Assembly (NCBI GenBank): GCA_947453415.1
Contig: CANGGG010000018.1
Coordinates: 1 to 43,434 of the forward strand
DNA: 43,434 nucleotides
Source of the DNA: Bacteroidota bacterium
GTDB lineage: Bacteria > Bacteroidota > Bacteroidia > UKL13-3
Reading direction: 5' to 3'
Part shown: piece by piece, positions 2,647 to 26,179 of the stretch
Layout: each line of letters starts with the position of its first letter
Position numbering within the stretch: position 1 is the stretch's first letter
Notes under the pieces: model-generated
What the model was told of the DNA's origin: nothing
What the model saw: the letters and a program-made list of their open reading frames with translations, nothing else
Databases searched by the model: none
Translations under genes and position numbers: made by a program

Positions 2647-2751
2647 AAGTCCTGCATTTGCAGGATTGGGGGTGGAAGTCGCGCCATGCGTGATGATACG
2701 ACCTCCATTTTATTGTTTTTTTTAAAATAAAAAAAGCCTAACATTACTGTT
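2647..2751 (-). repeat. tRNA-Pro-derived repeat, copy R1 (diverged)
   Basis: A 105-nt unit beginning (plus strand) AAGTCCTGC and ending ACATTACTGTT. It carries a CCTGC/GCAGG hairpin, then the block GGGGGTGGAAGTCGCGCC, then GATGATACGACCTCC, then an A/T-rich tail with AAAAAAAGCC. It is the most diverged copy: the central hairpin is TCGCGC-CAT-GCGTGA instead of TCACGC-CTC-GCGTGA, so the loop changed while the stem is kept through one G:T pair. Homology to the 3' half of the nearby tRNA-Pro is clear in ACGACCTCCA and GGTGG. Confidence 0.85.
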
Positions 2752-2811
2752 AAGTCCTGCATTTGCAGAATCGGGGTGGCAGTCACGCCTCGCGTGATAC
2801 GATCTCCAACT
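2752..2811 (-). repeat. tRNA-Pro-derived repeat, copy R2 (truncated at the GIY-YIG gene)
   Basis: Starts AAGTCCTGC exactly 105 nt after R1 starts and keeps the hairpin CTGC/GCAG, the tRNA-like block TCGGGGTGGCAG and the hairpin TCACGCCTCGCGTGA. It then stops after ATACGATCTCCAAC, right at the stop codon of the GIY-YIG gene (2812). The A/T-rich tail present in the other copies is absent, so the gene abuts or interrupts this copy. Confidence 0.85.
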
Positions 2812-3057
2812 TTAAATAATCTTTTTGTCTTGTAAAAATCTTTTTGCACCGCGACCTTTAATTTCTTTTTCCAAAATCCGAGCCTCACTAATTGAATTTA
2901 CTTCAAAAGAATAAATAAATTCCCAAGGAATTCCTTTTGAGGTAAAAGTACTAATTCCAGCATTGTGTTGTTCCAATCTTATGATTATGTTTTCAGTAAA
3001 ACCAGTATAATATTTGTTCAGTTTTGAACTAAAAATAATGTAAACAAAATACTTCAT
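2812..3057 (-). CDS. Small GIY-YIG family nuclease embedded in a tRNA-derived repeat array
   Basis: An 81-residue single-domain protein, the usual length for stand-alone GIY-YIG (UPF0213/YhbQ-like) proteins. The signature is complete: V5-Y6-I7, then Y17-T18-G19, the Arg at position 27 (RLEQHN), and the acidic residue in ARILEKEIKG (Glu63) that is expected to hold the metal. Family members cut DNA through a single metal ion; free-standing ones are found in mobile introns, repair proteins and many small proteins of unknown role. The gene lies between copies R2 and R3 of the repeats and is in the same orientation as the tRNA genes. Its stop codon is directly followed by the hairpin-bearing part of R2. 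The function in this organism is unknown; a link to the repeats is inferred from position. Confidence 0.85.
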   Translation of the reverse strand: MKYFVYIIFSSKLNKYYTGFTENIIIRLEQHNAGISTFTSKGIPWEFIYSFEVNSISEARILEKEIKGRGAKRFLQDKKII

Positions 3058-3096
3058 GAAATATTTATTTGTTAAAGTTAAATCTTAATTTTATAG

Positions 3097-3178
3097 ATTC
3101 GGGGTGGCCGTCACGCCTCGCGTGATACGACCTCCATTTTATTGTTTTTTAAAATAAAAAAAACCCAACATTACTGTT
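3097..3178 (-). repeat. tRNA-Pro-derived repeat, copy R3 (head missing)
   Basis: Begins within the element at ATTCGGGGTGGCC and continues through TCACGCCTCGCGTGATACGACCTCC, the A/T-rich tail and ACATTACTGTT. The CCTGC/GCAGG hairpin that starts the other copies is missing and replaced by unrelated A/T-rich leader of the GIY-YIG gene. R2 lacks its tail and R3 lacks its head, so together they look like one interrupted copy or two copies joined to a cassette. Confidence 0.85.
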
Positions 3179-3283
3179 AAGTCCTGCTTTTGCAGGGTCG
3201 GGGGTGGCAGTCACGCCTCGCGTGATGATACGACCTCCATTTTATTGTTTTTTTTAAAATAAAAAAAGCCCAACATTACTGTT
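3179..3283 (-). repeat. tRNA-Pro-derived repeat, copy R4 (full length, 105 nt)
   Basis: Complete unit in plus-strand order: CCTGC-TTTT-GCAGG hairpin, GGTCGGGGGTGGCAG (acceptor/T-stem-like), TCACGCCTCGCGTGA hairpin, GATGATACGACCTCCA, A/T-rich tail, AAAAAAAGCCCAACATTACTG. It is nearly identical to R5 except for a 3-nt duplication (GATGAT versus GAT), which R1 shares. Confidence 0.9.
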
Positions 3284-3373
3284 AAGTCCTGCTTTTGCAG
3301 GGTCGGGGGTGGCAGTCACGCCTCGCGTGATACGACCTCCATTTTATTGTTTTTTTTAAAATAAAAAAAGCCC
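3284..3373 (-). repeat. tRNA-Pro-derived repeat, copy R5 (joins the real tRNA-Pro terminator)
   Basis: Starts AAGTCCTGC 105 nt after R4 and carries the same blocks. Its tail (ATTTTATTGTTTTTTTTAAA, then AAAAAAAGCCC) is the same sequence that forms the poly-U tract and descending stem of the tRNA-Pro terminator. On the minus strand the array therefore reads tRNA-Pro, terminator, then repeated (tRNA 3' half plus terminator tail) units, as if this segment had been tandemly duplicated. Confidence 0.88.
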
Positions 3374-3393
3374 AAGTCTTTTGAACTTGAGCT
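3361..3393 (-). terminator. Intrinsic terminator of the tRNA-Ser/tRNA-Pro operon
   Basis: On the minus strand AGCTCAAGT pairs with ACTTGGGCT (one wobble pair) around a 7-nt loop, followed by seven or more T residues (3362-3368). It lies 15 nt downstream of the tRNA-Pro 3' end. Confidence 0.85.
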
Positions 3394-3407
3394 TTTGCCT
3401 GTAAAAG

Positions 3408-3481
3408 TCGGGGTGGCAGGATTCGAACCTACGACCTCCACATCCCAAATGTGGCGCGATACCAGGCTACGCTACACCCCG
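3408..3481 (-). tRNA. tRNA-Pro, anticodon TGG
   Basis: A 74-nt cloverleaf on the minus strand: acceptor CGGGGTG/CACCCCG, D-stem GCG/CGC with loop TAGCCTGGTAT, anticodon stem CCACA/TGTGG with loop TTTGGGA (anticodon TGG, reading CCA and other Pro codons), and T-arm GTAGG-TTCGAAT-CCTGC. The discriminator base is A at 3408. CCA is not encoded. It is the second gene of an operon behind tRNA-Ser and the likely parent of the repeats at 2647-3373. Confidence 0.97.
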
Positions 3482-3548
3482 TTTGCAAGTTTTTCAAAAG
3501 TGCTAAATTTTTGAACTAAGCATTACTACTCGCCCTTAAAAGATTATG

Positions 3549-3637
3549 CGGTGAGAGAGAGATTCGAACTCTCGATACACTTTGACGCGTATGTCGGTTT
3601 AGCAAACCGGTGGTTTCAGCCGCTCACCCATCTCACC
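3549..3637 (-). tRNA. tRNA-Ser, anticodon GCT
   Basis: An 89-nt class II tRNA on the minus strand: acceptor GGTGAGA/TCTCACC, discriminator G (3549), anticodon loop TTGCTAA giving anticodon GCT (AGC/AGU codons), a long variable arm, and T-arm GAGAG-TTCGAAT-CTCTC. CCA is not encoded. It is 67 nt upstream of tRNA-Pro and probably co-transcribed with it. Confidence 0.96.
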
Positions 3638-3871: not shown

Positions 3872-6475
3872 ATGGCAAAAGATAAAGTAATCAATTATAA
3901 ATATCGCGACTTAAAAATATTTGGTAGTACTGAATGGTTAGCGAATAACGAAAAAAAATATAGACAAGTTTATGATCTTTCTGAATGCACATTTATTTAT
4001 TGTGAACTTTCGTTTTTTAATAAATTATTTGATGAAAAAGAATGGGACGTAAAAATAAGTTTAAAGTGTGTAAAGCTAGATGACAGTTCAGAAATTTGTA
4101 CGCTTACTGCTGATAGAACTATAAAAAAAGACGAAAATATTGTATACATAAGAGAAGGATGGGGCGTAAAAAGTTCTGGTACTTTTTGGAAAAAAGGAAG
4201 TTACCGTTGGGAAGCTTGGGTAGATGGGGTTTTTATAGCGGAAAAAGCATTTTATATTTTAGACTTAGGCGTTGTTACAGAAACCGAAAACCCCTATTTT
4301 AATATAAAAACCAATAAACTTTACGAAGCAACTGAAACCAATATTCCAAAAGCAGAACGTAATTATTTGAGTGCTTTTGACACCAAGGAAACAAGGTATG
4401 TTTGGCTTGAAATGGTGGCGGAAAATTTAGTAAAAGGGGAAGAAAAATGGCCTTGTGAATTAATTTTTAATTTTAAAACCCGTTCGGGTCAATTAAAAGG
4501 CTCTGTTGAAAAACTATTTTTTGTAGATCCAATTGAACCATCGTTTGAATGTAGCATTGGTTGGGGCAATGATTTAAAAGGAACTTGGGGTTTAGATTAT
4601 TATACCATTGAGGTTATTTTTATGGACCAATTGGTAGCTAGCATTTTGTTTGACGTAGGAAACGAATTTTTAGTGGAACAAAAAATAAAGGAAATAAAAA
4701 CTAAAACCAAACAAACTATCAAAGTAATTGAGGCAGAAACAACTCCTGAGAATATTGAAAATATTATGCAGGAGCTTGATCATTTAATTGGGCTTGATTC
4801 AATAAAAAAGAAAATAAAAGAATACACCACTTATTTAAATTTTTTAAAAATAAGGAAAGAAAAAGGCTTTGATGATTCTGAAAAAATAAACTTACACGCG
4901 ATTTTTACAGGTAATCCAGGAACGGGAAAAACTACTGTTGCCAAAATGCTTGGCAAAATATATTTGCAACTTGGTTTGTTAAGTAAAGGACATGTAATAG
5001 AAGCCGATAGAAGTGATTTGGTAGCAGAATATATTGGCCAAACGGCTCCAAAAACCAAGGAAATTATTAAACGTGCAAAAGGGGGTATTTTATTCATAGA
5101 TGAGGCTTATGCTTTGGCACGCAAAAACGATGACAGCAAGGATTTTGGTAAAGAAGCCATTGAAATTTTACTGAAAGAAATGAGCGATGGTGATGGCGAT
5201 ATAGCAATTATTGCCGCAGGCTATCCCGATGAAATGAATAACTTTTTAGAAAGTAATCCTGGAATGAAAAGTAGGTTTCAAATGTTTTACGATTTCCCAG
5301 ATTATTTGCCTAAAGAATTACTTTTAATTGCTGAATATTCAACTCAAAAAAGAGGTATCAAATTCAATGAATTTTCAAAGGAATTGATGTTCAAAAAACT
5401 GATTGACGCATACAGAGACAGAGACAGAATGTTTGGAAATGCGCGTTATGTAAATAACTTAATTGACGAATGTAAAATGAATATGGGCTTGCGATTAATG
5501 CAATCGCCAAACCCTAGCGAATTGAGTAATGATATACTAAGTACAATAGAAACAGTAGACATTGAAAAAGTATTTGGTATCAAACATCAATCAATTACAG
5601 ATATTCCAATAGACGAAGAATTATTGTCTTCATCGCTTCAAGTTTTACATAGTTTAATAGGATTAAATAAGGTAAAAAATGAAATAGACGAATTGGTAAA
5701 ATTAGTCCGTTTTTATAGAGAAATAGGCAAAGACGTTCGTCAATCATTTTCGTTACATACTGTTTTTACTGGAAATCCTGGAACGGGTAAAACCACCGTG
5801 GCGCGTATTTTAGCACAAATTTATAAAGCCTTAGGAATTTTAGAAAGAGGAAATTTGGTAGAATGCGATAGACAAGATTTAGTGGGTGGATTTGTGGGAC
5901 AAACTGCATTAAAAACCAACGCAGTTTTGAACAAAGCAATGGGTGGTGTTTTATTTATTGACGAAGCATATGCATTAAGTGAGGGTGGTGAAAATGATTT
6001 TGGCAAAGAAGCGGTGGAAACTATTTTGAAAAAAATGGAAGATGTTAGAGGTGATATGATTGTAATTGTAGCCGGCTACACTGATAACATGAAGCGCTTT
6101 TTGGAAAGCAATCCTGGTTTAAACAGTAGGTTCGACAGAGAAATGCAGTTTGAAGATTATGATGCTTTGCAATTACATGAAATAGCTATAAAAATGCTGG
6201 CCAACAATGCCATTAAACCAACTGAGCAGGCATCAAATCACTTAAAAGCATACAGTGAAACGATGTATAAAACCAGAAATAAATTTTTTGGAAATGCACG
6301 AAGTATTAGAAAAGTGGTAGAAGAAGCCATTAAAAATCAACACTTACGATTAGCAAAAATTCCTGCAGCTGAACGATCTTCAGAAATGATTTTTGAATTG
6401 GTTTTGGACGATGTTATAGAATTTAAAATTGATACCATTGTTCCTGAAGCAAGAAAATCGATAGGATTTAATTAA
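3872..6475 (+). CDS. Tandem-domain AAA+ ATPase (CbxX/CfxQ/SpoVK type) with a duplicated N-terminal domain
   Basis: 867 residues. The C-terminal two thirds hold two AAA+ modules of the CbxX/CfxQ family. Module 1 has Walker A GNPGTGKT at 347-354 and Walker B LFIDEA (D410-E411); module 2 has Walker A at 634-641 and Walker B with D697-E698. Both have sensor-1-like AGYPDEM/AGYTDNM and an Arg-finger region ESNPG-(x)2-SRF, so both look able to hydrolyse ATP. The first 285 residues are not a known AAA part: they contain two similar ~95-residue beta-rich halves (about 38-130 and 168-262), each ending in a GWG...G(T)(F/W)...YxxE(A/V) pattern. A basic/helical linker (KIKEIKTKTKQTIK) joins it to the ATPase. 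Relatives remodel protein complexes (Rubisco activase CbbX, type VII secretion EccA, SpoVK). The client here is unknown; the neighbours give no clue. Confidence 0.88.
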   Translation: MAKDKVINYKYRDLKIFGSTEWLANNEKKYRQVYDLSECTFIYCELSFFNKLFDEKEWDVKISLKCVKLDDSSEICTLTADRTIKKDENIVYIREGWGVKSSGTFWKKGSYRWEAWVDGVFIAEKAFYILDLGVVTETENPYFNIKTNKLYEATETNIPKAERNYLSAFDTKETRYVWLEMVAENLVKGEEKWPCELIFNFKTRSGQLKGSVEKLFFVDPIEPSFECSIGWGNDLKGTWGLDYYTIEVIFMDQLVASILFDVGNEFLVEQKIKEIKTKTKQTIKVIEAETTPENIENIMQELDHLIGLDSIKKKIKEYTTYLNFLKIRKEKGFDDSEKINLHAIFTGNPGTGKTTVAKMLGKIYLQLGLLSKGHVIEADRSDLVAEYIGQTAPKTKEIIKRAKGGILFIDEAYALARKNDDSKDFGKEAIEILLKEMSDGDGDIAIIAAGYPDEMNNFLESNPGMKSRFQMFYDFPDYLPKELLLIAEYSTQKRGIKFNEFSKELMFKKLIDAYRDRDRMFGNARYVNNLIDECKMNMGLRLMQSPNPSELSNDILSTIETVDIEKVFGIKHQSITDIPIDEELLSSSLQVLHSLIGLNKVKNEIDELVKLVRFYREIGKDVRQSFSLHTVFTGNPGTGKTTVARILAQIYKALGILERGNLVECDRQDLVGGFVGQTALKTNAVLNKAMGGVLFIDEAYALSEGGENDFGKEAVETILKKMEDVRGDMIVIVAGYTDNMKRFLESNPGLNSRFDREMQFEDYDALQLHEIAIKMLANNAIKPTEQASNHLKAYSETMYKTRNKFFGNARSIRKVVEEAIKNQHLRLAKIPAAERSSEMIFELVLDDVIEFKIDTIVPEARKSIGFN

Positions 6476-17419: not shown

Positions 17420-20400
17420 TTATTGTTTAACCAATGATTTAACAATCATATCGTCACCAATTTGAACTTTAACAATATAAGTACCTGCTGCAGTAAAATT
17501 ATTTGAAGCTAATTCAAATTCATGTTTTCCGCTAGCTACATTATTATGAGTTGTAGTAGAAATTACTCTTCCTAATATATCTGTAATAGTTATAGTAATG
17601 TCTTCAGTTTTAGTTAAACTCAAACCTATTACTGTGTTATTAGCAAAAGGATTAGGATAAGCAGATAAGTTAAACTTACTAGCTAACTCTTCACCAGCAC
17701 TAACACCTACATCTACTTTAACTGTATCTTGGTAATTAACAACACAGCCTTCAGCAGTAGTAACTTGCATTCTAACGGTGAATATACCACTTTTGTTATA
17801 AGTAAAATCAGCAACACGTTGCATTGTAGTAGTACTATCAGCATCTCCATAATTCCATAAATATTGGTTCATATCAGATGATAAATCAGAAGGTGTTAAT
17901 ACTTTACGGTTATTCACTGTAAACTTACCTGGTATTGGGAATGATTGTTTAGTGAAAGTAATGATAGGTTTAGCAACAACTGTAATTGTTCCCGATTTTG
18001 TATCGATACAACCATCAGAAGTAGCAGAAATACTCCAGTTGTAAACACCAGCATCAGGATAAACATTAGATGAATTACATGCACCACTACTTTGACCATT
18101 ACCAAATACCCATGCACAAATAATACCTGAACCACTTGAAGCAAAAGATTTACTCGTAAATGTTACAACATTACCTTGACAAACTTTATCAGTTGTAACA
18201 CCCGTTTTAATAGTACCACCTAATTCAGCAACAGCAACTGGAGCTGTTTTAACTTCTACATTTTTAGTTACTGAATCTTTACATCCAAATAATTTATTAT
18301 AAGCAACTAACTTAACAATAAATGGATCTCCGCTGTTATTATTTAAATAACGATGTTTAGGGTCTTGACGTAAATCTTCACCACTGTTATCACCTAAATC
18401 CCAAATATAACCAGCATTTTGAATACCTGCACCATAAGTAGTTTGGTTATTAAATGTTGTTGAGTCATTAGTACAAGCACTAGTAAACAAGAAATCAGGA
18501 CGAGGAGTTTCATATACTGTTACTAATCTAGAAGTAGAATCTTCACAACCAGCAGCAGAAACTAAACGTAAACGAACGGTTACATTTCCACTGTTTGCAA
18601 ATTTAATTTGGAAAGTATTTGATTGACGAGTTTCACCAGTACTAAATGACCAATACCAACCTAATCTATCAGTATTTGAGATAGTTGAACTATCAGTGTA
18701 AGGCATGTATTGACCTTGACAATGGCTAGTTACATAAAATTTAGCTTTAGGTTTAGCATATGAAGGGAAAATTTTGTTATTAATAGCAAAACAACCATTT
18801 GAACTACTTGTAACTCTTAAAGCTACATTATAGTTTGTATCTGCTTTGTTAAAACCAAAAGTAGTTACAGGAGTTGTTCTATAAATATTTCCTGGGAAAG
18901 TCCATAAATAATTCAATCCAGCTGCTTGATTAGTTACTGTAAAATAAGTTGAATCATTTTGACAAACAATAGCGGTAGAACTAACAGTATATGCAGCATT
19001 TGGAGCCTGTAAAACTGTAATTAATCTAGATACAGTATCAGATAATCCTAATGCTGAGGTAGCACGTAAAGTAACTCTATAAGAACCTGCAGTATTCCAA
19101 ATTTTATTTGGATTTGCAAAAGTAGAAGTGGTATTGTCACCAAAAGTCCATAACCAAGTTACACCTGCTTGTGGTCCTTGATTAACTATAAAATTTAATC
19201 CAGTACCTGTACAAGCTGTATCAGCTCTTGGTCCTGTAACAAAACCATAAGCTACTGGGTTATTTACTTTAATATAACGATATACAGTTGTATCGCAGTT
19301 AGTAGGTAAGAAACGAATAGTTGTTTTTAAAACAAATAAACTATCACCTTCAGCAATTGTTGGTGTAAATGAAACTTTAGCATTTGTTGAAGTTGTAGGA
19401 GCTGTTATTGTAACGTTAGTAGCAGGAGTATTTCCATAAACAGTTTTAACAGATGTATTAATTAATGTCCAATTGGTGCCATAACTAGCATTTGTATAAT
19501 AACTAGTTGGGGTTAATATTTCATATCTTAAAGTGTTATTATATTTAACAGCATCTGGTTTATTTAAATCACCGTCATTTGCTGCTCCATTAAATGCTCC
19601 TGGAGTTAAATCAGGTATTATATAACCACCTGCTGCCACAATCGGACGAGTAAAACGATTAATTACAGTAGTAAAACTACCTGGTAAATTATTACTACAA
19701 TAGTTTGGCTGAACAGAAGAAGAAGGAGCTTGATAAGTTCCAGAACCATAGTTAATAGCAGAAATAACATAATTTAAAGTATCAACTTGACGGTTTTTAA
19801 ATCTTAAAGTTAAATTACCCATATTACCAGTAGCTGAATCCAAAGTTCCAACTCCATTACCAGAAGCATCTAATTCAATGGCTCTGTATACATAACGGTA
19901 ATCAGTATTAGGTACAGTAATAGTTACAGGTTGGTTTAAATTACAAATTGTTGAAACCACACCAGTAGGAACTTGACTTTGATTATCGTCTATAATTTGA
20001 ATACTATCAATTAATATATTATTACCTAAACCAGCACTAAATGCATCAAATTGGAAACTGTAATTGTTTCCTGGAGTTCTGTATTCAGTTAAACAAGCTT
20101 CATAAGTAAACCAATCTGGATAAGCAGAAAGTGAATTAGGTCTAACCGCAACTTTAATTACAGGGCCTTGGAAGCCATTGATTAAAACTGTAACATTTAC
20201 TGAATCTCTTCTTGTAACATTATTATTACTTTGAGAGAAACGGAAACGTAAAATTGGTCTTTGTAAAACACTTAAATTAAAACAAGGAGAAATTAACCTA
20301 GCTGAGGCACCAGCTGCCAATGTAGCAGCGGGGAAAACAGCACACTTAATACCATTTTCTACAGGTTGAGAAGGATTAATAGACGAACCGAAAGCAGCTG

Positions 20401-23400
20401 TATTCCAATTTGCAGCAAGCGTTAACGATTGAGTTGACCAACCTTTTAAACCATCTTCAAAGTTCATGGTATAAGGATAAGTAGCAATACCAGTAGATAA
20501 AGTATCCCAAGCTTTTACAACAGGATTTGGATATAGTCCATTATTACCTGCAATATCAGAAGCAGTAATTTTATACTCAATAATACCACCTGATGCAAAA
20601 GCAGAAGCAGGGAAACTATAAGTTCTAACTAAGAAACCATTACTATTAGTGCTAGATGAAGTAGAAGAACTTGGTAAATTAATTTGAGAACCACCATTTA
20701 CTCTATAAGTTAATACATCACCAGTATAATTTTTATCTACTACAATAAAACTAATTGAAGGGAAAGTAGCATTTAAACAAACAACAGTATTTGCAGGAAT
20801 CACACGAGGTAAAACACTATCAATATTGTTTCCACCAGTATATTCATGAGCTCCCATTGAAGGACTTAAACTATTTCTAGTATTAGAAATAACGTCTGTA
20901 GTTACACCAATTACAGGAGTACCCGCACCGTAAATAACTGAATTAGTTAAAGCAGGAATAAATAAATCTAAATCACTGGTAAAAGGAACTGTAAAGTTAG
21001 TACTATACAAATCACCACCAGTGAATTTGTTTATATTATCCCAACCATTAAATAAGTTTTCAGTACCAATTGCATTTGTTGTTAATTGATTATTGGTAGC
21101 ATTAGTAGCATTACATAAGTAATTGTTATTTTCAGATAATGAAAAAGCACTTAACAAACTACTTACTTGTACCGCACTTGCTCTTACACCATTTAAAATA
21201 GAAGTACCACCTAATTTATTAGAGAATAAATTATTTGACATTTTAAATCCAGATTTCAATAATAATGAAGTTGAATTTAAAGCAAACTTATCAGCTATTG
21301 CTAAACAAGCTGTTCTACCAGCTGTAACTGTATTTGCAGTTCCTAAGTTTATAGAATTATAGTAAATTCCAATATTAGGATCAGAGTATGGATTTGTTGG
21401 AGATGCATCAATTGCAATTCCATAAACACCACTCATTAAAGTAGCTGAGCCAGTAGCAGATATTCCAGAAATCATGTTATTAGTAATTCTAGTACTATTA
21501 GTAACATTACCTGCATCAGCTCCAAAATTGATATAAATACCATAAGCAGCACTACCACTTACAGTTGAGCTAATATTTTTAATGATGTTAGCATCAATGA
21601 TGTTAGCAGAATCTAAAATTGTATTTGAACCAACAATAGTTCCTAATTCAATTCCTCTAGGGTTTGAAAAAGTAATCATGTTGTTTTGTATTTTATTTTG
21701 TTTAATGTTTGCTCTGTATTGACCTACACAAAAAATTGCAGCAGCATTATTAATACCACCAAAATAATTAGTTGCAACGGTTCCTCCTGGAGCATTATTG
21801 CCGCCAATTACATTATTTAAAATTGAAGTAGTAACATCTCCTTGGCCTCTTACACCATTTCCTCTTAAATAAATACCATATTGACATCCACCAATAAAGT
21901 TATTTGAGAATGAATTATTGTTATTTCCACCTAAACCAGCACCATTTGAAGGAGTAGCAGTAATACCACCCATATAAATAGCAGCAAAAGTATTGATAGC
22001 CGTTGTTGAAGAATTTCCAATTAAATTACAATTATTTACAAAATTATTTGAAGTAGAAAGGCTCGTAGCAAAAATTGAACTTTGGCCACCTAAAATATCA
22101 ATTATTTTATAAGAAGATGAATTCATAATACTAGGCATTACAATTGTTAAATCTCTTGTAGTAGTTCCATTATTAGAACCATCAAAACCAAAATAACTTG
22201 AACTTGTAAATCTAATTAAGCTTGAATTTGCTGCAGGAGCAGTTAAAACCGTAGTAAATTTAATGGTATCTTGACGACCAGCAGCAACAGTTACAATAAC
22301 TGGAACTGTAGAAGAAGCAGAAGGGTAATCAAAAACTGTAATTGGAGTAACAAAAGTATCTGTTTCACCAACATATCCACTGCTTAAAGCTAAACGAACA
22401 GGATTTGAACCCGAAAATGCTAAACCAACACCAAATGCATTTAAGTAATTTACTGCTGAACGCAATGTTTTAAATGAACCGGTGTTTGCACTAGCTAATA
22501 CAGGATAATTATCCACACCATTAATTTGATAAGTGGCATTAGGTTGTAAAGGTGTGTTTATTAAATTCAATTTTACAGCACCCATTTGAGGTCCTAATGA
22601 TCTAGTTGCACCATAAATATCAATAAGTACTAATGATACAGAAGCACCTGCAGTATATCTAGAACCAGCAGTTACCGCATTTAAATCTGGTAAAGTATCA
22701 GATAAAAATTTAGTTGGAAAATTAAATGAACTTAAATCTGCAGTAGTTCCAGTGAACTGACGTAAAGTATTAATGTTCATTCTAGTTGGAACTGTTGTTG
22801 ATGGAGTAGCCATCAAAATATTATTAGTAGCAGTAGGATTATTTCCAGAAACAAAATAAGAATTGAAATCTGATGCTGGAATAGAGAATACTGGATTTAA
22901 AGCAAATGGATTAGTTGGCGAAATTGAAATTACAGAATACATAGTACCTGCTGTGTTTCTATTAGCTGTTACACCAAAAATATTATTTACACTTGATATA
23001 CCACCTCTAATAGATGAACCCATAAATAATGCTGAGATAGAACTATTTGCTGCTAAAATATTATTACCAGTCATGTTTATAGTATTATTCGACATGGTGA
23101 TTAAATCAGCAGATGTATATATATTAACAGTAGATGCATCTATTAAAATACCTGTTGGATTTAATAAACTTGCTGGTGAGCCGGTACCCGAACCAATAGC
23201 AAGTATATTTGAAATGAAATTATTTGCAAAGAAATAACTTCTTGCTCCAGTAGGTGCAGTAAAATAAGCTCTAATTCCAATTGCACTTTGACCACTAACT
23301 GTAACTAAATTATAAATAAAGTTTTTAGTTACTGTTACATCAAAATTTGGATATTTAGCAGAAACTTCAGCCACTTCAATTCCCCTAAATCCATTAGATA

Positions 23401-26179
23401 ATGAAGTAGTTGGTAAAGTATTTCTAACAATATTTGAATCAATTACTGTTGCTTCAATACCTTGAACATAAATACCAGCTTGATTGGCTGCACCACCAAT
23501 AAATGTAGTTGGTAAACTGCCATTTGGAGCTGTAGAACCACCAATAATATTACCAACCATTTTTAAATTAGCAATTCTAAATGATGGAACACCTGAGGCT
23601 GTGCCTTTAAAATCTGGCGCAGTTCCTGCAAGATTTGCCGCTGAACCTAAAACAACAATACCACTTCTTACACCTTGAATTAAATTATTATTGAAGTTAA
23701 TATTTTTATTATCAATAGTTCTCAAAGTATCGTTTCCAGCAGGAATAGCATTAGTTATAGGGAAACCATAATAAATACCTGCATATGTGTTAATAGCTGT
23801 TGTTGAAGTATTACCTAAAATGTTTACATTTTTGATGGTAATATTTTGACAAGGAACATCTGTAGGAACTATACCAATAACACGTGCATTATTTGTTACT
23901 GATTGGCCTCTAAACATAAATGTTAAGTTTCTAACATTAGGTCCAGTACTAGTTAAACCATCAACTATTACATTTTTTGCACCCATAAATCTTAAAATAG
24001 AGGTGTTCGCCATGTTTTGAGTATTTGGAGCCCAGATGGTATCTACAACACCAACATTTGGTCTTATTACTACATTTAATGAAGGATCAGAACCTGGATA
24101 ATCAATGATTGCTGGAATCCAACCAGTTTCTCTAGCATAACCTGAAGAAATACGAAGTGTTACATTGTTTTGATTTCCAACAATTCCATAAGAATTTAAA
24201 TGGGTAATTGCTTCAGCTAAATCTTTAAAACTTCCTGTGTTAGGTGTAGAAGCTACTGGAGGACTAGAAAAACCATCAATATTATATGTTATACCACCAC
24301 GTAAAGCAGTAGGAATATCAATTGAATCTCCTAACCATTGATGACAACCAATTGAAGTAAATCTACCTAAACCTGTTCTCGGATTTCCAAAAATATCATC
24401 ACTTACTTTATTAACTAATGCGTTATAAACAGCAATGCTGAATTGATTTAAAGTGGTTAATGCATAACCTCTATTGAAAGTTCTATGAGAAAAACCACTT
24501 GCTACTGACCATAAGGTATCACTAGTAGTTGGTGGATTAACAGCAAAACTGTTGGTATCTGAAGGACAATAAGTAACATAGCTTTTTACAGTTGAAACAT
24601 TTGTTAAAACGTTATTTCTATTTAAACCAGCTACAAAAGTATATCCACCACCAAATGTGTTAGCAAAATAATTATTAAAATTTGAGAAAGCAAAAGGATT
24701 AACATTACTTGCTGCAACTATGATAGCATAGTTTTGATAACCTGCTAAATTACCAAATGTAGTAAAACCATCACCTTTTGTTCTGCTTAATTTGTTTACA
24801 AATGAATTATTCATCATGGTTATACCACCTAAGGTAGTACTACTTGTTACCAAACAAGCTGAAATTGAATTTGAAGCTATTGTATCACCAGTTAAATTAA
24901 CTGAATTAAATAAAACTTCTAAACCAACATTTGAAGTTGCCACGTCTATTAATATACCAGCAGTGTATGTTCCCATACTTCCAAATGCATTCGCACCATT
25001 TAAAGTTGCTATTTTAGCAATTGAATTATTTGCAATTAATATATTTCTGGGTGCAGTGGGAACTCCTAAACTTAATCTAATTCCAGACACACCTTGACTC
25101 ACAGCATTTGAAAAAATACCATAAATTTGATTTTTTACAACTCTAATATTTGAATCCAATGCAATAGCGCCTGTTCCATCTAATCTTATTCCGGAAAAAT
25201 TACCATTAACCGAAGCAACACTTAGTGGTAAAGCGTTTCTAATAATATTACCAGAAACTGTAGAGTTAGAAACTGTATTTAAATAAATACCTGAAAGATT
25301 TGAAGTTGTTCCTCCAATACAAGCTGAATTAGCAGCATTAATTGGGTTGCTATAATTACCTATTATATTGTTAATAATATTAACTCCTGTATCTTGAGAA
25401 GGAAATAATGTAGTACTTGAAGCAAATCCTCTATGTGAAATACCATTTTGAACAGCCATAATTAAATTATTTACATAACTAATATTATAGTTTGTTCCTA
25501 CTAAAGCTGGTGCAGTGTTTGAAGCTGTTCCGCCAAAATAAACACCTGCATATGTATTTATAGTAGTTCCAACAGAATTACCAACGATAATACAATTTTT
25601 AACACCAACATTTCTTAATCTATTTGCAGCGGCAGGAATAAAGTCAATAACTTTAGCAGTTGTAGCATTTGAAGTTGCCATGTTAAACGTTATATTTCTT
25701 TGTCCTGATGTTCCACTTCCATCTATTGTAAAATCTGTACTTCCAAAAACTCTAAATAAACTTCCATTTGCAGCTATTGTAGCTGTTGATGAAATCACAA
25801 AGTTTAAACCAGCAGCTGGTTTTAAAACAATTGGTCTTGTTGAACTCATGTTTGGGTAACCAGCACCTGTTCCTTGACCAACTTGAATAGGCGAAGGTTC
25901 AACTCCAGAATAACCAGATGATAATAATATAGTAACAGTACCTGGTGCTAATGTAACATCAATACCATTAGTATTTAAATAAGTAATGGCACCAGCATTT
26001 CCAGTACCCATCAGGTTCACAAATGTATCTACAGGAGCAACTAAATCTGCTTGTCCGTTAACAACATAAGTTTTACCACCTGCAAAACCTTGGGCAAAAG
26101 CACTACTAGCTGTTAACCCAATAAATACAACTAAGAATAAACTTAGTTTAGCGTAAAAATTAGTAAATTTTGATTTCAT
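17420..26179 (-). CDS. Giant type IX-secreted surface protein: three beta-helix modules, jelly roll-like region, PKD-like domains, sorting domain
   Basis: 2919 residues. Sec signal peptide (1-29, ending SSAFAQ). Three homologous modules of about 580 residues (about 30-620, 627-1210 and 1215-1775) each begin with Y-x-(I/V)-(D/N)-G, then SF(K)xL or similar, a LNxxG(I/V) segment and LSSGY/ISSGY, followed by Asn- and Gly-rich right-handed parallel beta-helix turns rich in NN-(I/F)-I and G-(I/V)-Y. Residues about 1903-2065 (NFEDGLKGW to ILIDSIQII) look like a MAM-type jelly roll. Five or more PKD-like domains follow (about 2308-2800; WLWTFGDNTTS, YIWDLGDNSGE, YLWNYGDADST). The type IX C-terminal domain starts near 2835 (SAYPNPFANNT, LGRVIST, GTYIVKV). 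Likely a cell-surface or shed adhesin; ligand unknown. Own promoter and terminator, so monocistronic. Confidence 0.9.
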   Translation of the reverse strand: MKSKFTNFYAKLSLFLVVFIGLTASSAFAQGFAGGKTYVVNGQADLVAPVDTFVNLMGTGNAGAITYLNTNGIDVTLAPGTVTILLSSGYSGVEPSPIQVGQGTGAGYPNMSSTRPIVLKPAAGLNFVISSTATIAANGSLFRVFGSTDFTIDGSGTSGQRNITFNMATSNATTAKVIDFIPAAANRLRNVGVKNCIIVGNSVGTTINTYAGVYFGGTASNTAPALVGTNYNISYVNNLIMAVQNGISHRGFASSTTLFPSQDTGVNIINNIIGNYSNPINAANSACIGGTTSNLSGIYLNTVSNSTVSGNIIRNALPLSVASVNGNFSGIRLDGTGAIALDSNIRVVKNQIYGIFSNAVSQGVSGIRLSLGVPTAPRNILIANNSIAKIATLNGANAFGSMGTYTAGILIDVATSNVGLEVLFNSVNLTGDTIASNSISACLVTSSTTLGGITMMNNSFVNKLSRTKGDGFTTFGNLAGYQNYAIIVAASNVNPFAFSNFNNYFANTFGGGYTFVAGLNRNNVLTNVSTVKSYVTYCPSDTNSFAVNPPTTSDTLWSVASGFSHRTFNRGYALTTLNQFSIAVYNALVNKVSDDIFGNPRTGLGRFTSIGCHQWLGDSIDIPTALRGGITYNIDGFSSPPVASTPNTGSFKDLAEAITHLNSYGIVGNQNNVTLRISSGYARETGWIPAIIDYPGSDPSLNVVIRPNVGVVDTIWAPNTQNMANTSILRFMGAKNVIVDGLTSTGPNVRNLTFMFRGQSVTNNARVIGIVPTDVPCQNITIKNVNILGNTSTTAINTYAGIYYGFPITNAIPAGNDTLRTIDNKNINFNNNLIQGVRSGIVVLGSAANLAGTAPDFKGTASGVPSFRIANLKMVGNIIGGSTAPNGSLPTTFIGGAANQAGIYVQGIEATVIDSNIVRNTLPTTSLSNGFRGIEVAEVSAKYPNFDVTVTKNFIYNLVTVSGQSAIGIRAYFTAPTGARSYFFANNFISNILAIGSGTGSPASLLNPTGILIDASTVNIYTSADLITMSNNTINMTGNNILAANSSISALFMGSSIRGGISSVNNIFGVTANRNTAGTMYSVISISPTNPFALNPVFSIPASDFNSYFVSGNNPTATNNILMATPSTTVPTRMNINTLRQFTGTTADLSSFNFPTKFLSDTLPDLNAVTAGSRYTAGASVSLVLIDIYGATRSLGPQMGAVKLNLINTPLQPNATYQINGVDNYPVLASANTGSFKTLRSAVNYLNAFGVGLAFSGSNPVRLALSSGYVGETDTFVTPITVFDYPSASSTVPVIVTVAAGRQDTIKFTTVLTAPAANSSLIRFTSSSYFGFDGSNNGTTTRDLTIVMPSIMNSSSYKIIDILGGQSSIFATSLSTSNNFVNNCNLIGNSSTTAINTFAAIYMGGITATPSNGAGLGGNNNNSFSNNFIGGCQYGIYLRGNGVRGQGDVTTSILNNVIGGNNAPGGTVATNYFGGINNAAAIFCVGQYRANIKQNKIQNNMITFSNPRGIELGTIVGSNTILDSANIIDANIIKNISSTVSGSAAYGIYINFGADAGNVTNSTRITNNMISGISATGSATLMSGVYGIAIDASPTNPYSDPNIGIYYNSINLGTANTVTAGRTACLAIADKFALNSTSLLLKSGFKMSNNLFSNKLGGTSILNGVRASAVQVSSLLSAFSLSENNNYLCNATNATNNQLTTNAIGTENLFNGWDNINKFTGGDLYSTNFTVPFTSDLDLFIPALTNSVIYGAGTPVIGVTTDVISNTRNSLSPSMGAHEYTGGNNIDSVLPRVIPANTVVCLNATFPSISFIVVDKNYTGDVLTYRVNGGSQINLPSSSTSSSTNSNGFLVRTYSFPASAFASGGIIEYKITASDIAGNNGLYPNPVVKAWDTLSTGIATYPYTMNFEDGLKGWSTQSLTLAANWNTAAFGSSINPSQPVENGIKCAVFPAATLAAGASARLISPCFNLSVLQRPILRFRFSQSNNNVTRRDSVNVTVLINGFQGPVIKVAVRPNSLSAYPDWFTYEACLTEYRTPGNNYSFQFDAFSAGLGNNILIDSIQIIDDNQSQVPTGVVSTICNLNQPVTITVPNTDYRYVYRAIELDASGNGVGTLDSATGNMGNLTLRFKNRQVDTLNYVISAINYGSGTYQAPSSSVQPNYCSNNLPGSFTTVINRFTRPIVAAGGYIIPDLTPGAFNGAANDGDLNKPDAVKYNNTLRYEILTPTSYYTNASYGTNWTLINTSVKTVYGNTPATNVTITAPTTSTNAKVSFTPTIAEGDSLFVLKTTIRFLPTNCDTTVYRYIKVNNPVAYGFVTGPRADTACTGTGLNFIVNQGPQAGVTWLWTFGDNTTSTFANPNKIWNTAGSYRVTLRATSALGLSDTVSRLITVLQAPNAAYTVSSTAIVCQNDSTYFTVTNQAAGLNYLWTFPGNIYRTTPVTTFGFNKADTNYNVALRVTSSSNGCFAINNKIFPSYAKPKAKFYVTSHCQGQYMPYTDSSTISNTDRLGWYWSFSTGETRQSNTFQIKFANSGNVTVRLRLVSAAGCEDSTSRLVTVYETPRPDFLFTSACTNDSTTFNNQTTYGAGIQNAGYIWDLGDNSGEDLRQDPKHRYLNNNSGDPFIVKLVAYNKLFGCKDSVTKNVEVKTAPVAVAELGGTIKTGVTTDKVCQGNVVTFTSKSFASSGSGIICAWVFGNGQSSGACNSSNVYPDAGVYNWSISATSDGCIDTKSGTITVVAKPIITFTKQSFPIPGKFTVNNRKVLTPSDLSSDMNQYLWNYGDADSTTTMQRVADFTYNKSGIFTVRMQVTTAEGCVVNYQDTVKVDVGVSAGEELASKFNLSAYPNPFANNTVIGLSLTKTEDITITITDILGRVISTTTHNNVASGKHEFELASNNFTAAGTYIVKVQIGDDMIVKSLVKQ

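Follow-up and report, generated by a model that had tools for sequence, protein, structure and literature searches.

An array of five tRNA fragments beside a tRNA-Pro gene, found in a 43,434-nt stretch of Bacteroidota DNA (contig CANGGG010000018.1; hereafter the window), is probably a homing-endonuclease element composed of a minimal GIY-YIG nuclease gene and pieces of the tRNA gene that it exploits. The combination of an enzyme with broken tRNA copies appears to be a type of selfish element, so far undescribed, that lives on essential genes; among the literature matches listed, consulted as titles and abstract openings and with subscription journals and preprints outside the scope, no description of a tRNA-linked GIY-YIG and relic arrangement in cellular genomes was found. 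The layout is recurrent: an intact tRNA gene and its terminator are followed by a GIY-YIG gene and then by a tRNA relic in which a palindrome has taken the place of one arm (D, anticodon or T); a 5′ relic is often present upstream as well. Our interpretation rests on the GIY-YIG gene within the array, its invariant catalytic residues and its constrained evolution, on the tRNA linkage and relic counts in three genome sets and their absence from a control clade, on the clustering of tRNA identity and of the palindrome-bearing arm on the nuclease tree, and on the empty, relic-only and nuclease-bearing states of one locus across a genus together with a tandem array in another genome.

On the minus strand of the window, the order is tRNA-Ser(gct), tRNA-Pro(tgg), three tRNA-like units, an open reading frame of 81 residues and two further units (Table 1). 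The initial annotation had recognised five minus-strand repeats derived from the 3′ half of the adjoining tRNA-Pro, with the T-arm exchanged for another hairpin. Colinear blocks and above-shuffle alignment scores bear out this derivation, and the exchange is evident as TCACGC-nnn-GCGTGA in place of GGTTCGAATC; the intact GIY-YIG gene between units 3 and 4 had been overlooked. The tRNA-Pro itself is a normal gene and the sole tRNA-Pro among the 29 tRNA matches of its own draft assembly. The part of it copied in units R1 to R5 starts at the anticodon stem and runs through to the 3′ end. Every unit has TGGAGGTCGTA, or a version with one change, as the 3′ strand of that stem; each carries TGGAG(G/A)TCGTA followed by the palindrome that replaces the T-arm; and the acceptor stem is represented in all of them by its 3′ strand CTGCCACCCCGA, exactly or with few changes. 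The substitute is TCACGC-GAG-GCGTGA in R1 to R4 and a decayed form of it in R5. The terminator, which had been described as part of each repeat, is found in copies with one-base differences after R1, R2 and R4 only. The palindrome blocks follow one another at steps of 104, 328, 100 and 105 nt, the 328-nt step containing the nuclease gene.

Table 1 Features of the tRNA-Pro array in the window
Feature	Position	Strand	Description
tRNA-Ser(gct)	3548..3637	-	Upstream neighbour of tRNA-Pro; no relics; same neighbour in nine genus genomes
tRNA-Pro(tgg), intact	3407..3481	-	Parent and supposed target of the relics; ARAGORN, Rfam RF00005 66 bits
GATTCGAAC, T-loop of tRNA-Pro as read on the plus strand	3420..3428	+	Fits SegB motif RAWTSGAAC; missing from the five relics
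Relic R1	3303..3341	-	Anticodon-stem 3′ strand, palindrome 3330-3316 for the T-arm, acceptor 3′ strand; terminator-like copy then to about 3256
Relic R2	3198..3239	-	Palindrome 3225-3211; then terminator-like copy
Relic R3	3099..3136	-	Palindrome 3125-3111; 41 nt ahead of nuclease start codon; no terminator copy
GIY-YIG endonuclease gene, 81 aa	2812..3057	-	Pfam PF01541, E 2.7e-13; between R3 and R4
Relic R4	2771..2808	-	Palindrome 2797-2783; 3 nt past nuclease stop codon; then terminator-like copy
Relic R5	2666..2707	-	Decayed palindrome 2693-2679; no terminator copy

When tRNA-Pro was aligned locally to its own downstream flank, the best score was 29.5, with a maximum of 23.0 in 200 shuffles, and the tRNA trace in the flank of the window nuclease scored 31.5, where the best of four shuffles reached 23.4. 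With no more than 10-12-nt blocks left, these scores are modest; the colinear relics in three relatives (G002, G004 and G008; truncated in G001) are stronger evidence than the window scores. The nuclease gene lies 349 nt from tRNA-Pro with three relics between them, indicating that it is not a fresh insertion, which counts against the homing interpretation. A match to Rfam RF04351 on the plus strand of tRNA-Ser was dismissed, as it falls below the gathering score and overlaps the tRNA.

The GIY-YIG domain is the only domain found in the window protein (50.4 bits to the Pfam family, whose curated cut-off is 22.6). Residues Y6, Y17, G19, R27, H31, E63 and K67 are invariant in all 14 aligned family members and include the Tyr, Tyr-x-Gly, Arg and Glu of the domain, which we take to be catalytic. 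The dN/dS ratio is 0.22 between the window nuclease and its G008 orthologue and 0.13-0.28 in all seven pairs computed; the nuclease is under purifying selection. The nearest solved structure by sequence is that of the UPF0213 protein BH0048 (1zg2, E 0.0039), a small GIY-YIG protein and a weak match that is uninformative on function. We rejected a phage or plasmid vector for the window nuclease, since phages and plasmids yielded no match to the protein, and IMG/VR no confirmed relative. Among other members of the family, one linked to tRNA-Val had no phage match and one linked to tRNA-Met matched two Staphylococcus phage records at 36% identity; two IMG/VR contigs matched over 34 residues.

The tRNA-Ser/tRNA-Pro stretch was matched in nine of ten genomes of the genus, and the nine loci differ in what flanks tRNA-Pro. 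No relic was seen at three of them, which are empty (G003, G005 and G009), three carry relics only (G001, G004 and G006) and three contain the nuclease (G000, G002 and G008). Of the nuclease-free loci with relics, that of G004 holds one, that of G001 a truncated one, and that of G006 a 5′ relic upstream of tRNA-Pro in which the D-loop is replaced by ATCCCGATAGCTATCGGGAT. The order in G008 is relic, nuclease, relic, relic. The simplest form is that of G002, whose locus was read as two parts, each at a contig end: tRNA-Pro and its terminator, a nuclease that starts directly past the T run, and a single relic whose terminator is nearly identical. These varied states indicate gain and loss of both nuclease and relics beside a tRNA that is itself conserved, and such sporadic presence at an otherwise conserved locus, here across nine genomes of a genus, is a mark of homing endonuclease genes.

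The association extends well beyond this locus. A search with the window protein gave matches in 39 of 58 genomes, its own included, and 126 GIY-YIG reading frames were extracted by script from loci fetched out of the 58. Forty-nine of these frames begin at most 150 nt 3′ of a tRNA gene on the same strand, and the tRNAs span nine amino-acid types (Ala, Arg, Asn, Asp, Leu, Met, Phe, Pro and Val). A relic was called with other tRNA genes masked, where the score exceeded the maximum of 200 shuffles and was at least 24. By this measure, 30 of the 41 frames that could be tested have a relic of the linked tRNA downstream of the nuclease, 17 of 47 have one upstream of the tRNA, and 35 of 49 have one in either place. 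Here and in the other counts of this set, each frame of an array was counted singly, so the figures are not independent events. The other 14 linked frames, some of them cut off by contig ends, have no relic by score, which speaks against a homing element. Few differences separate the relic blocks from the intact tRNA, which is not visibly recoded. In 7 of the 17 upstream relics (L013, L032, L010, L090, L081, L056 and L112) the last aligned block ends in the T-loop, at tRNA position 57-60, and in downstream relics the first aligned tRNA position ranges from 1 to 61.

A tree was built from 107 proteins out of the 126 frames, with rows shorter than 65 residues and repeated proteins left out; it rests on a short alignment and leaves many forks open. 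One clade of 37 rows (support 99/96), the control clade, has no tRNA link, compared with 41 of the 70 other rows that do, and the control cases that were read (L004 and L060) adjoin other repeats. When the 300-nt flanks were scored for tRNA-derived sequence at a threshold of at least 34 (the largest shuffled best being 31.7; four frames shorter than 40 residues were left out), none of the 38 control-clade frames had any, compared with 23 of the 35 other frames that had not been linked to a tRNA. The remaining 12 of those 35, the window's own among them at 31.5, show no trace above threshold and count against the homing interpretation. The identity of the linked tRNA clusters on the tree, requiring 30 changes where the shuffled mean is 40.1 and none of 200 shuffles was as low. 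Near rows share a target across families (Asn in f1, f6 and f20; Val in f14 and f22; Leu(caa) in f1 and f4), and the Ala and Met targets each occur in more than one place on the tree. The arm that is replaced by the palindrome is also clustered on a nuclease tree of 30 rows, where it takes 7 changes against a mean of 12.1 in 200 shuffles, none of which was as low.

A profile of 14 family members matched 95 of 148 Bacteroidota genomes, which is only an upper figure for the tRNA-linked kind because the profile also catches relatives of the control type. Among the best 30 loci listed by profile score, two of which had been seen before, 19 have a tRNA at most 150 nt upstream of the nuclease and three have the mirror order, with a tRNA at most 16 nt downstream; 20 of these 22 loci carry relics. 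The remaining eight comprise six loci with an upstream tRNA at a distance of 154 to 646 nt and two at contig starts. This set adds the tRNA types Lys, Thr and Ser. Scanning the contigs of named genomes with the window protein alone as query, we found a tRNA at most 150 nt upstream in 10 of 16 loci (two of these being G008 and G002 again) and a downstream relic in 7 of 9 loci tested. Two intact tRNA copies precede the nuclease in Draconibacterium orientale FH5T (tRNA-Asp) and in Carboxylicivirga sp. A043 (tRNA-Phe). A Peregrinibacteria locus (L213) reads 5′ relic, nuclease, intact tRNA-Asp and 3′ relic, both relics bearing, by eye, the same palindrome, and a Moranbacteria locus (L220) has tRNA-Val relics with TCCCGAGTACTCGGGA on both sides. 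The layout is common to Bacteroidota and some Patescibacteria.

A long array was read in G029, where 11 units of 80 nt, each the 5′ part of tRNA-Asn with its D-loop replaced by a palindrome, precede one intact tRNA-Asn. Past it lie eight nuclease genes spaced at about 410 nt, and behind each of them come a 3′ part of tRNA-Asn and a terminator; in these relics the T-loop is replaced, by seven identical palindromes and one variant. Strict one-to-one nesting would not predict 11 upstream and eight downstream units, a point against the homing interpretation. Multiple nuclease copies are also present in G018 (three, one with an in-frame stop) and G032 (two). Relics beside other tRNA genes, a possibility that the initial annotation had raised, do exist in the window's own genome, where clear relics adjoin five of 29 tRNA genes: Pro, Arg-tct, Ala-ggc and two with a CAT anticodon. 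At Arg-tct, Ala-ggc and one CAT tRNA the contigs hold relics and no GIY-YIG match, the tRNA-Arg relics forming a nuclease-free array. Weak scores at two tRNA-Thr genes of this genome (21.9 and 18.2) were not counted as relics, because masking lowers the shuffle maxima.

Palindromes are a frequent component of the relics. A palindrome of at least 6 bp is present in 21 of 30 downstream relics and in 20 of 315 control windows, which were fixed at 70 nt and are compared with relics of varying length; that the script found none in the other nine relics counts against a homing element. The position of the palindrome recurs exactly, between tRNA positions 36 and 47 at six tRNA-Met loci (L010, L034, L091, L097, L099 and L114) and between positions 57 and 62 at four others (L080, L035, L110 and L135), several of these loci sharing one genus. 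The arm that the palindrome replaces is lost from the relics but retained in the intact tRNA. Of 58 distinct relic palindromes, 23 start with TCCCG; the TCACGC form of the window is one base off TCCCGC.

In detail, a homing element could work as follows. The nuclease would cut the tRNA gene in one arm, in the window presumably the T-arm of tRNA-Pro. Repair by homologous recombination with an element-bearing allele, a step suggested by the layout, the empty sites and the minimal form in G002, would copy the nuclease gene along with the 3′ end of the tRNA and its terminator, restoring a complete tRNA and leaving the displaced 3′ part downstream as a relic. The palindrome that replaces the target arm in relics may serve to remove the recognition site. 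Re-cutting of the restored tRNA, or recombination between relics, would enlarge the arrays of relics and nucleases, and nuclease copies may then be lost while the relics stay, leaving orphans such as those seen here. A seat on an essential tRNA gene would favour persistence. Cutting in a loop, restoring repair and repetition of the two would together account for the relics, the arrays, the orphan relics and the clusters of targets. This scheme does not explain where the palindrome comes from and how it is written, how a protein of about 80 residues finds its target, or how the intact tRNA is spared; as that tRNA is not visibly recoded when compared with the relics, the nuclease should be capable of cutting its own element, which argues against the scheme.

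The palindromes invite a different explanation, in which they are themselves mobile units. REP and BIME palindromes, which are mobilised with RAYT (TnpA_REP) transposases, combine dispersed short palindromes with a linked nuclease gene for a Y1 HUH enzyme. By analogy, the nuclease here would act on palindromes that insert into any hairpin loop, and the tRNA relics would be tolerated landing places beside the nuclease gene. Indeed, TCCCGAT-n-ATCGGGA occurs 15 times in the window's own genome and up to 138 times in a relative, with 0 or 1 occurrences of the reversed control per genome, and TCACGC-n-GCGTGA occurs 20 times in the own genome and 61 times in G002. The same palindromes are also found outside tRNA relics, some of the TCACGC type within other repeated hairpins, which also weakens the homing interpretation. 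CCG in the 5′ arm, present in 49 of the 58 relic palindromes and 15 of 134 control palindromes, also speaks for mobile palindromes, and the palindrome count tracks the number of GIY-YIG matches over the 58 genomes (Spearman 0.52; 0.56 without the own genus), figures that ignore relatedness and include the control clade. Taken alone, however, palindrome mobility gives no account of the duplicated tRNA parts and terminators, of a nuclease beside an intact tRNA, or of the clustering of tRNA identity on the nuclease tree, and palindromes are present in genomes with no GIY-YIG match (11 in G003, 21 in G005). Unlike REP systems, moreover, the linked enzyme matches PF01541 and not TnpA_REP, the palindromes sit in tRNA arms, and tRNA sequence is part of the element. 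We consider this explanation unlikely.

Homing might instead be replaced by addiction, with the nuclease destroying the tRNA genes of element-free cells or DNA, the element supplying an intact tRNA and its loss being lethal. The intact tRNA within or beside the element, the single tRNA-Pro found in the draft genome and the relics disarmed at one arm would all suit such a cleave-and-rescue device. The immunity of the rescue copy would be unexplained, however, given that the intact tRNA is not visibly recoded, and neither the two side-by-side intact copies in Draconibacterium and Carboxylicivirga nor the relics without nuclease fit it. We regard addiction by itself as quite improbable. A broader proposal combines rescue with homing: selfish elements found throughout the phylum, in lineages specialised for particular tRNAs, would carry or restore an essential tRNA while their minimal nuclease cuts that tRNA gene elsewhere, and the nuclease or the repair would write a conserved palindrome of the TCCCG...CGGGA type into the cut arm of the displaced copies, immunising them. 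Such a natural home-and-rescue drive with a scar, shared by Bacteroidota and Patescibacteria, may exist, and we put it forward tentatively, as a proposal that we would on balance bet against.

Two explanations dispense with a selfish nuclease. Replication slippage could have duplicated tRNA regions that then decayed neutrally, the nuclease link being secondary, as the short tandem periods (80, about 105 and 410 nt) and the nuclease-free array at tRNA-Arg might suggest; the confinement of the association to part of the GIY-YIG tree, the exact recurrence of palindrome positions and the purifying selection on the nuclease leave this a very slim chance. Slimmer still is the chance that an ordinary tyrosine-integrase element left the duplicated ends with the GIY-YIG gene as a passenger. 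Such elements use the 3′ part of a tRNA gene, keep the tRNA functional and leave a 3′ fragment downstream, and a restored tRNA 3′ end with a fragment beyond it is the classic outcome of integration. The second suggestion of the initial annotation, that duplicated ends had been left by a mobile element using the tRNA, came near our preferred reading, except that the gene in the array is a GIY-YIG nuclease and not an integrase. No integrase-size reading frame is present in the window array, where the longest non-flanking one (133 residues) runs through the repeats, and the 410-nt units of G029 contain a nuclease and a relic only. The varying first aligned position of downstream relics, the 5′ relics, the palindromes in the relics and the tandem nuclease-relic arrays also set the arrangement apart from integrase elements. 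The first suggestion of the initial annotation, a dispersed family like the tRNA-derived SINEs of eukaryotes, was rejected: the window repeat does derive from a tRNA, but it is local and bears no sign of retroposition, and a search of its genome with the 105-nt unit found no further copy, the two other matches being 23 nt of AT-rich sequence and 49 nt that cover the tRNA-Pro terminator.

If the array is a homing element, its best-studied analogue in tRNA-gene cutting and tandem amplification, the cutting here being our proposal, is SegB, a free-standing homing endonuclease of phages T4 and T6. According to the part of the SegB study drawn on here (PMC13096335), SegB of phage T6 cuts within tRNA genes, at sites enriched for RAWTSGAAC (23/83); tandem amplification of tRNA-Tyr with segB needs SegB activity and phage recombination genes; and segB homologues lie near tRNAs in phage genomes and occur, with or without a tRNA link, in phages that include those of Bacteroidota. 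Both enzymes have a PF01541 GIY-YIG domain, and segB too sits between tRNA genes. On the opposite strand, RAWTSGAAC corresponds to the tRNA T-loop and is near universal among tRNAs, so the occurrence of GATTCGAAC in tRNA-Pro gives no independent support. Unlike the phage-borne SegB of 221 residues, the window nuclease is chromosomal, has 81 residues and belongs to a family with same-target clades, and palindrome-bearing tRNA relics are not reported for SegB in that part of the study (PMC13096335). Clear full-length homology was not found in the comparison of SegB with the nuclease family, where hhalign aligned 26 columns (probability 10, E 0.003). As judged by sequence, SegB is not a close homologue, and the likeness is one of working and not of membership.

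If the homing interpretation is correct, tRNA genes across a bacterial phylum would be a habitat of nuclease-borne selfish elements, a chromosomal counterpart of SegB-driven tRNA amplification. This would account for many short genes of the GIY-YIG type in the genomes of Bacteroidota, as well as for many of their tRNA fragments and palindromes, and would provide very small candidate site-specific nucleases. It would also make it possible to test how an essential gene can host a homing element that does not recode it.

The order of the small GIY-YIG nuclease gene and the intact tRNA is mirrored at L213, L216, L223, L242, L248, L257, L120 and L145, where the nuclease gene lies directly upstream, rather than downstream, of the tRNA. 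At two further nuclease loci, L059 and L006, the stop codon of the nuclease gene is provided by tRNA relic sequence, which at L059 also encodes the last residues of the nuclease. In annotations of such proteins, the C-terminal tail can thus consist of translated tRNA sequence.

In the window's own genome, locus L184 (G000:C57) harbors several 5′ relics of tRNA-Arg, arranged in tandem upstream of tRNA-Arg tct. Most of these relics have the D-arm replaced by a palindrome of the window's type and the anticodon arm by a different palindrome. The L184 contig contained no GIY-YIG match. Both dispersed palindrome types, TCACGC..GCGTGA and TCCCGAT..ATCGGGA, are also found within other repeats (L165, L164, L153 and others), as exemplified by cgtcattgcga[palindrome]gtggcaatctc.

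Other genes of the window
Feature	Window position	Domains	Remarks
867-aa protein	3872-6475	two AAA ATPase domains and lid domains	transcription directed away from the tRNA pair
2919-aa protein	17420-26179	PKD domains and C-terminal secretion-system sorting domain	

The small GIY-YIG genes of the 37-row clade are related to the tRNA-linked genes but lack the tRNA link. Reading of two of their loci, L060 (G030:C60) and L004 (G000:C43), revealed that the genes there sit amid other dispersed repeats, TGTCATTTCGAGCG... and TCACCCTGAGCCTGTCGAAGGG.... The 37-row clade may be tied to those repeats in parallel to the association of the tRNA clades with their tRNAs.
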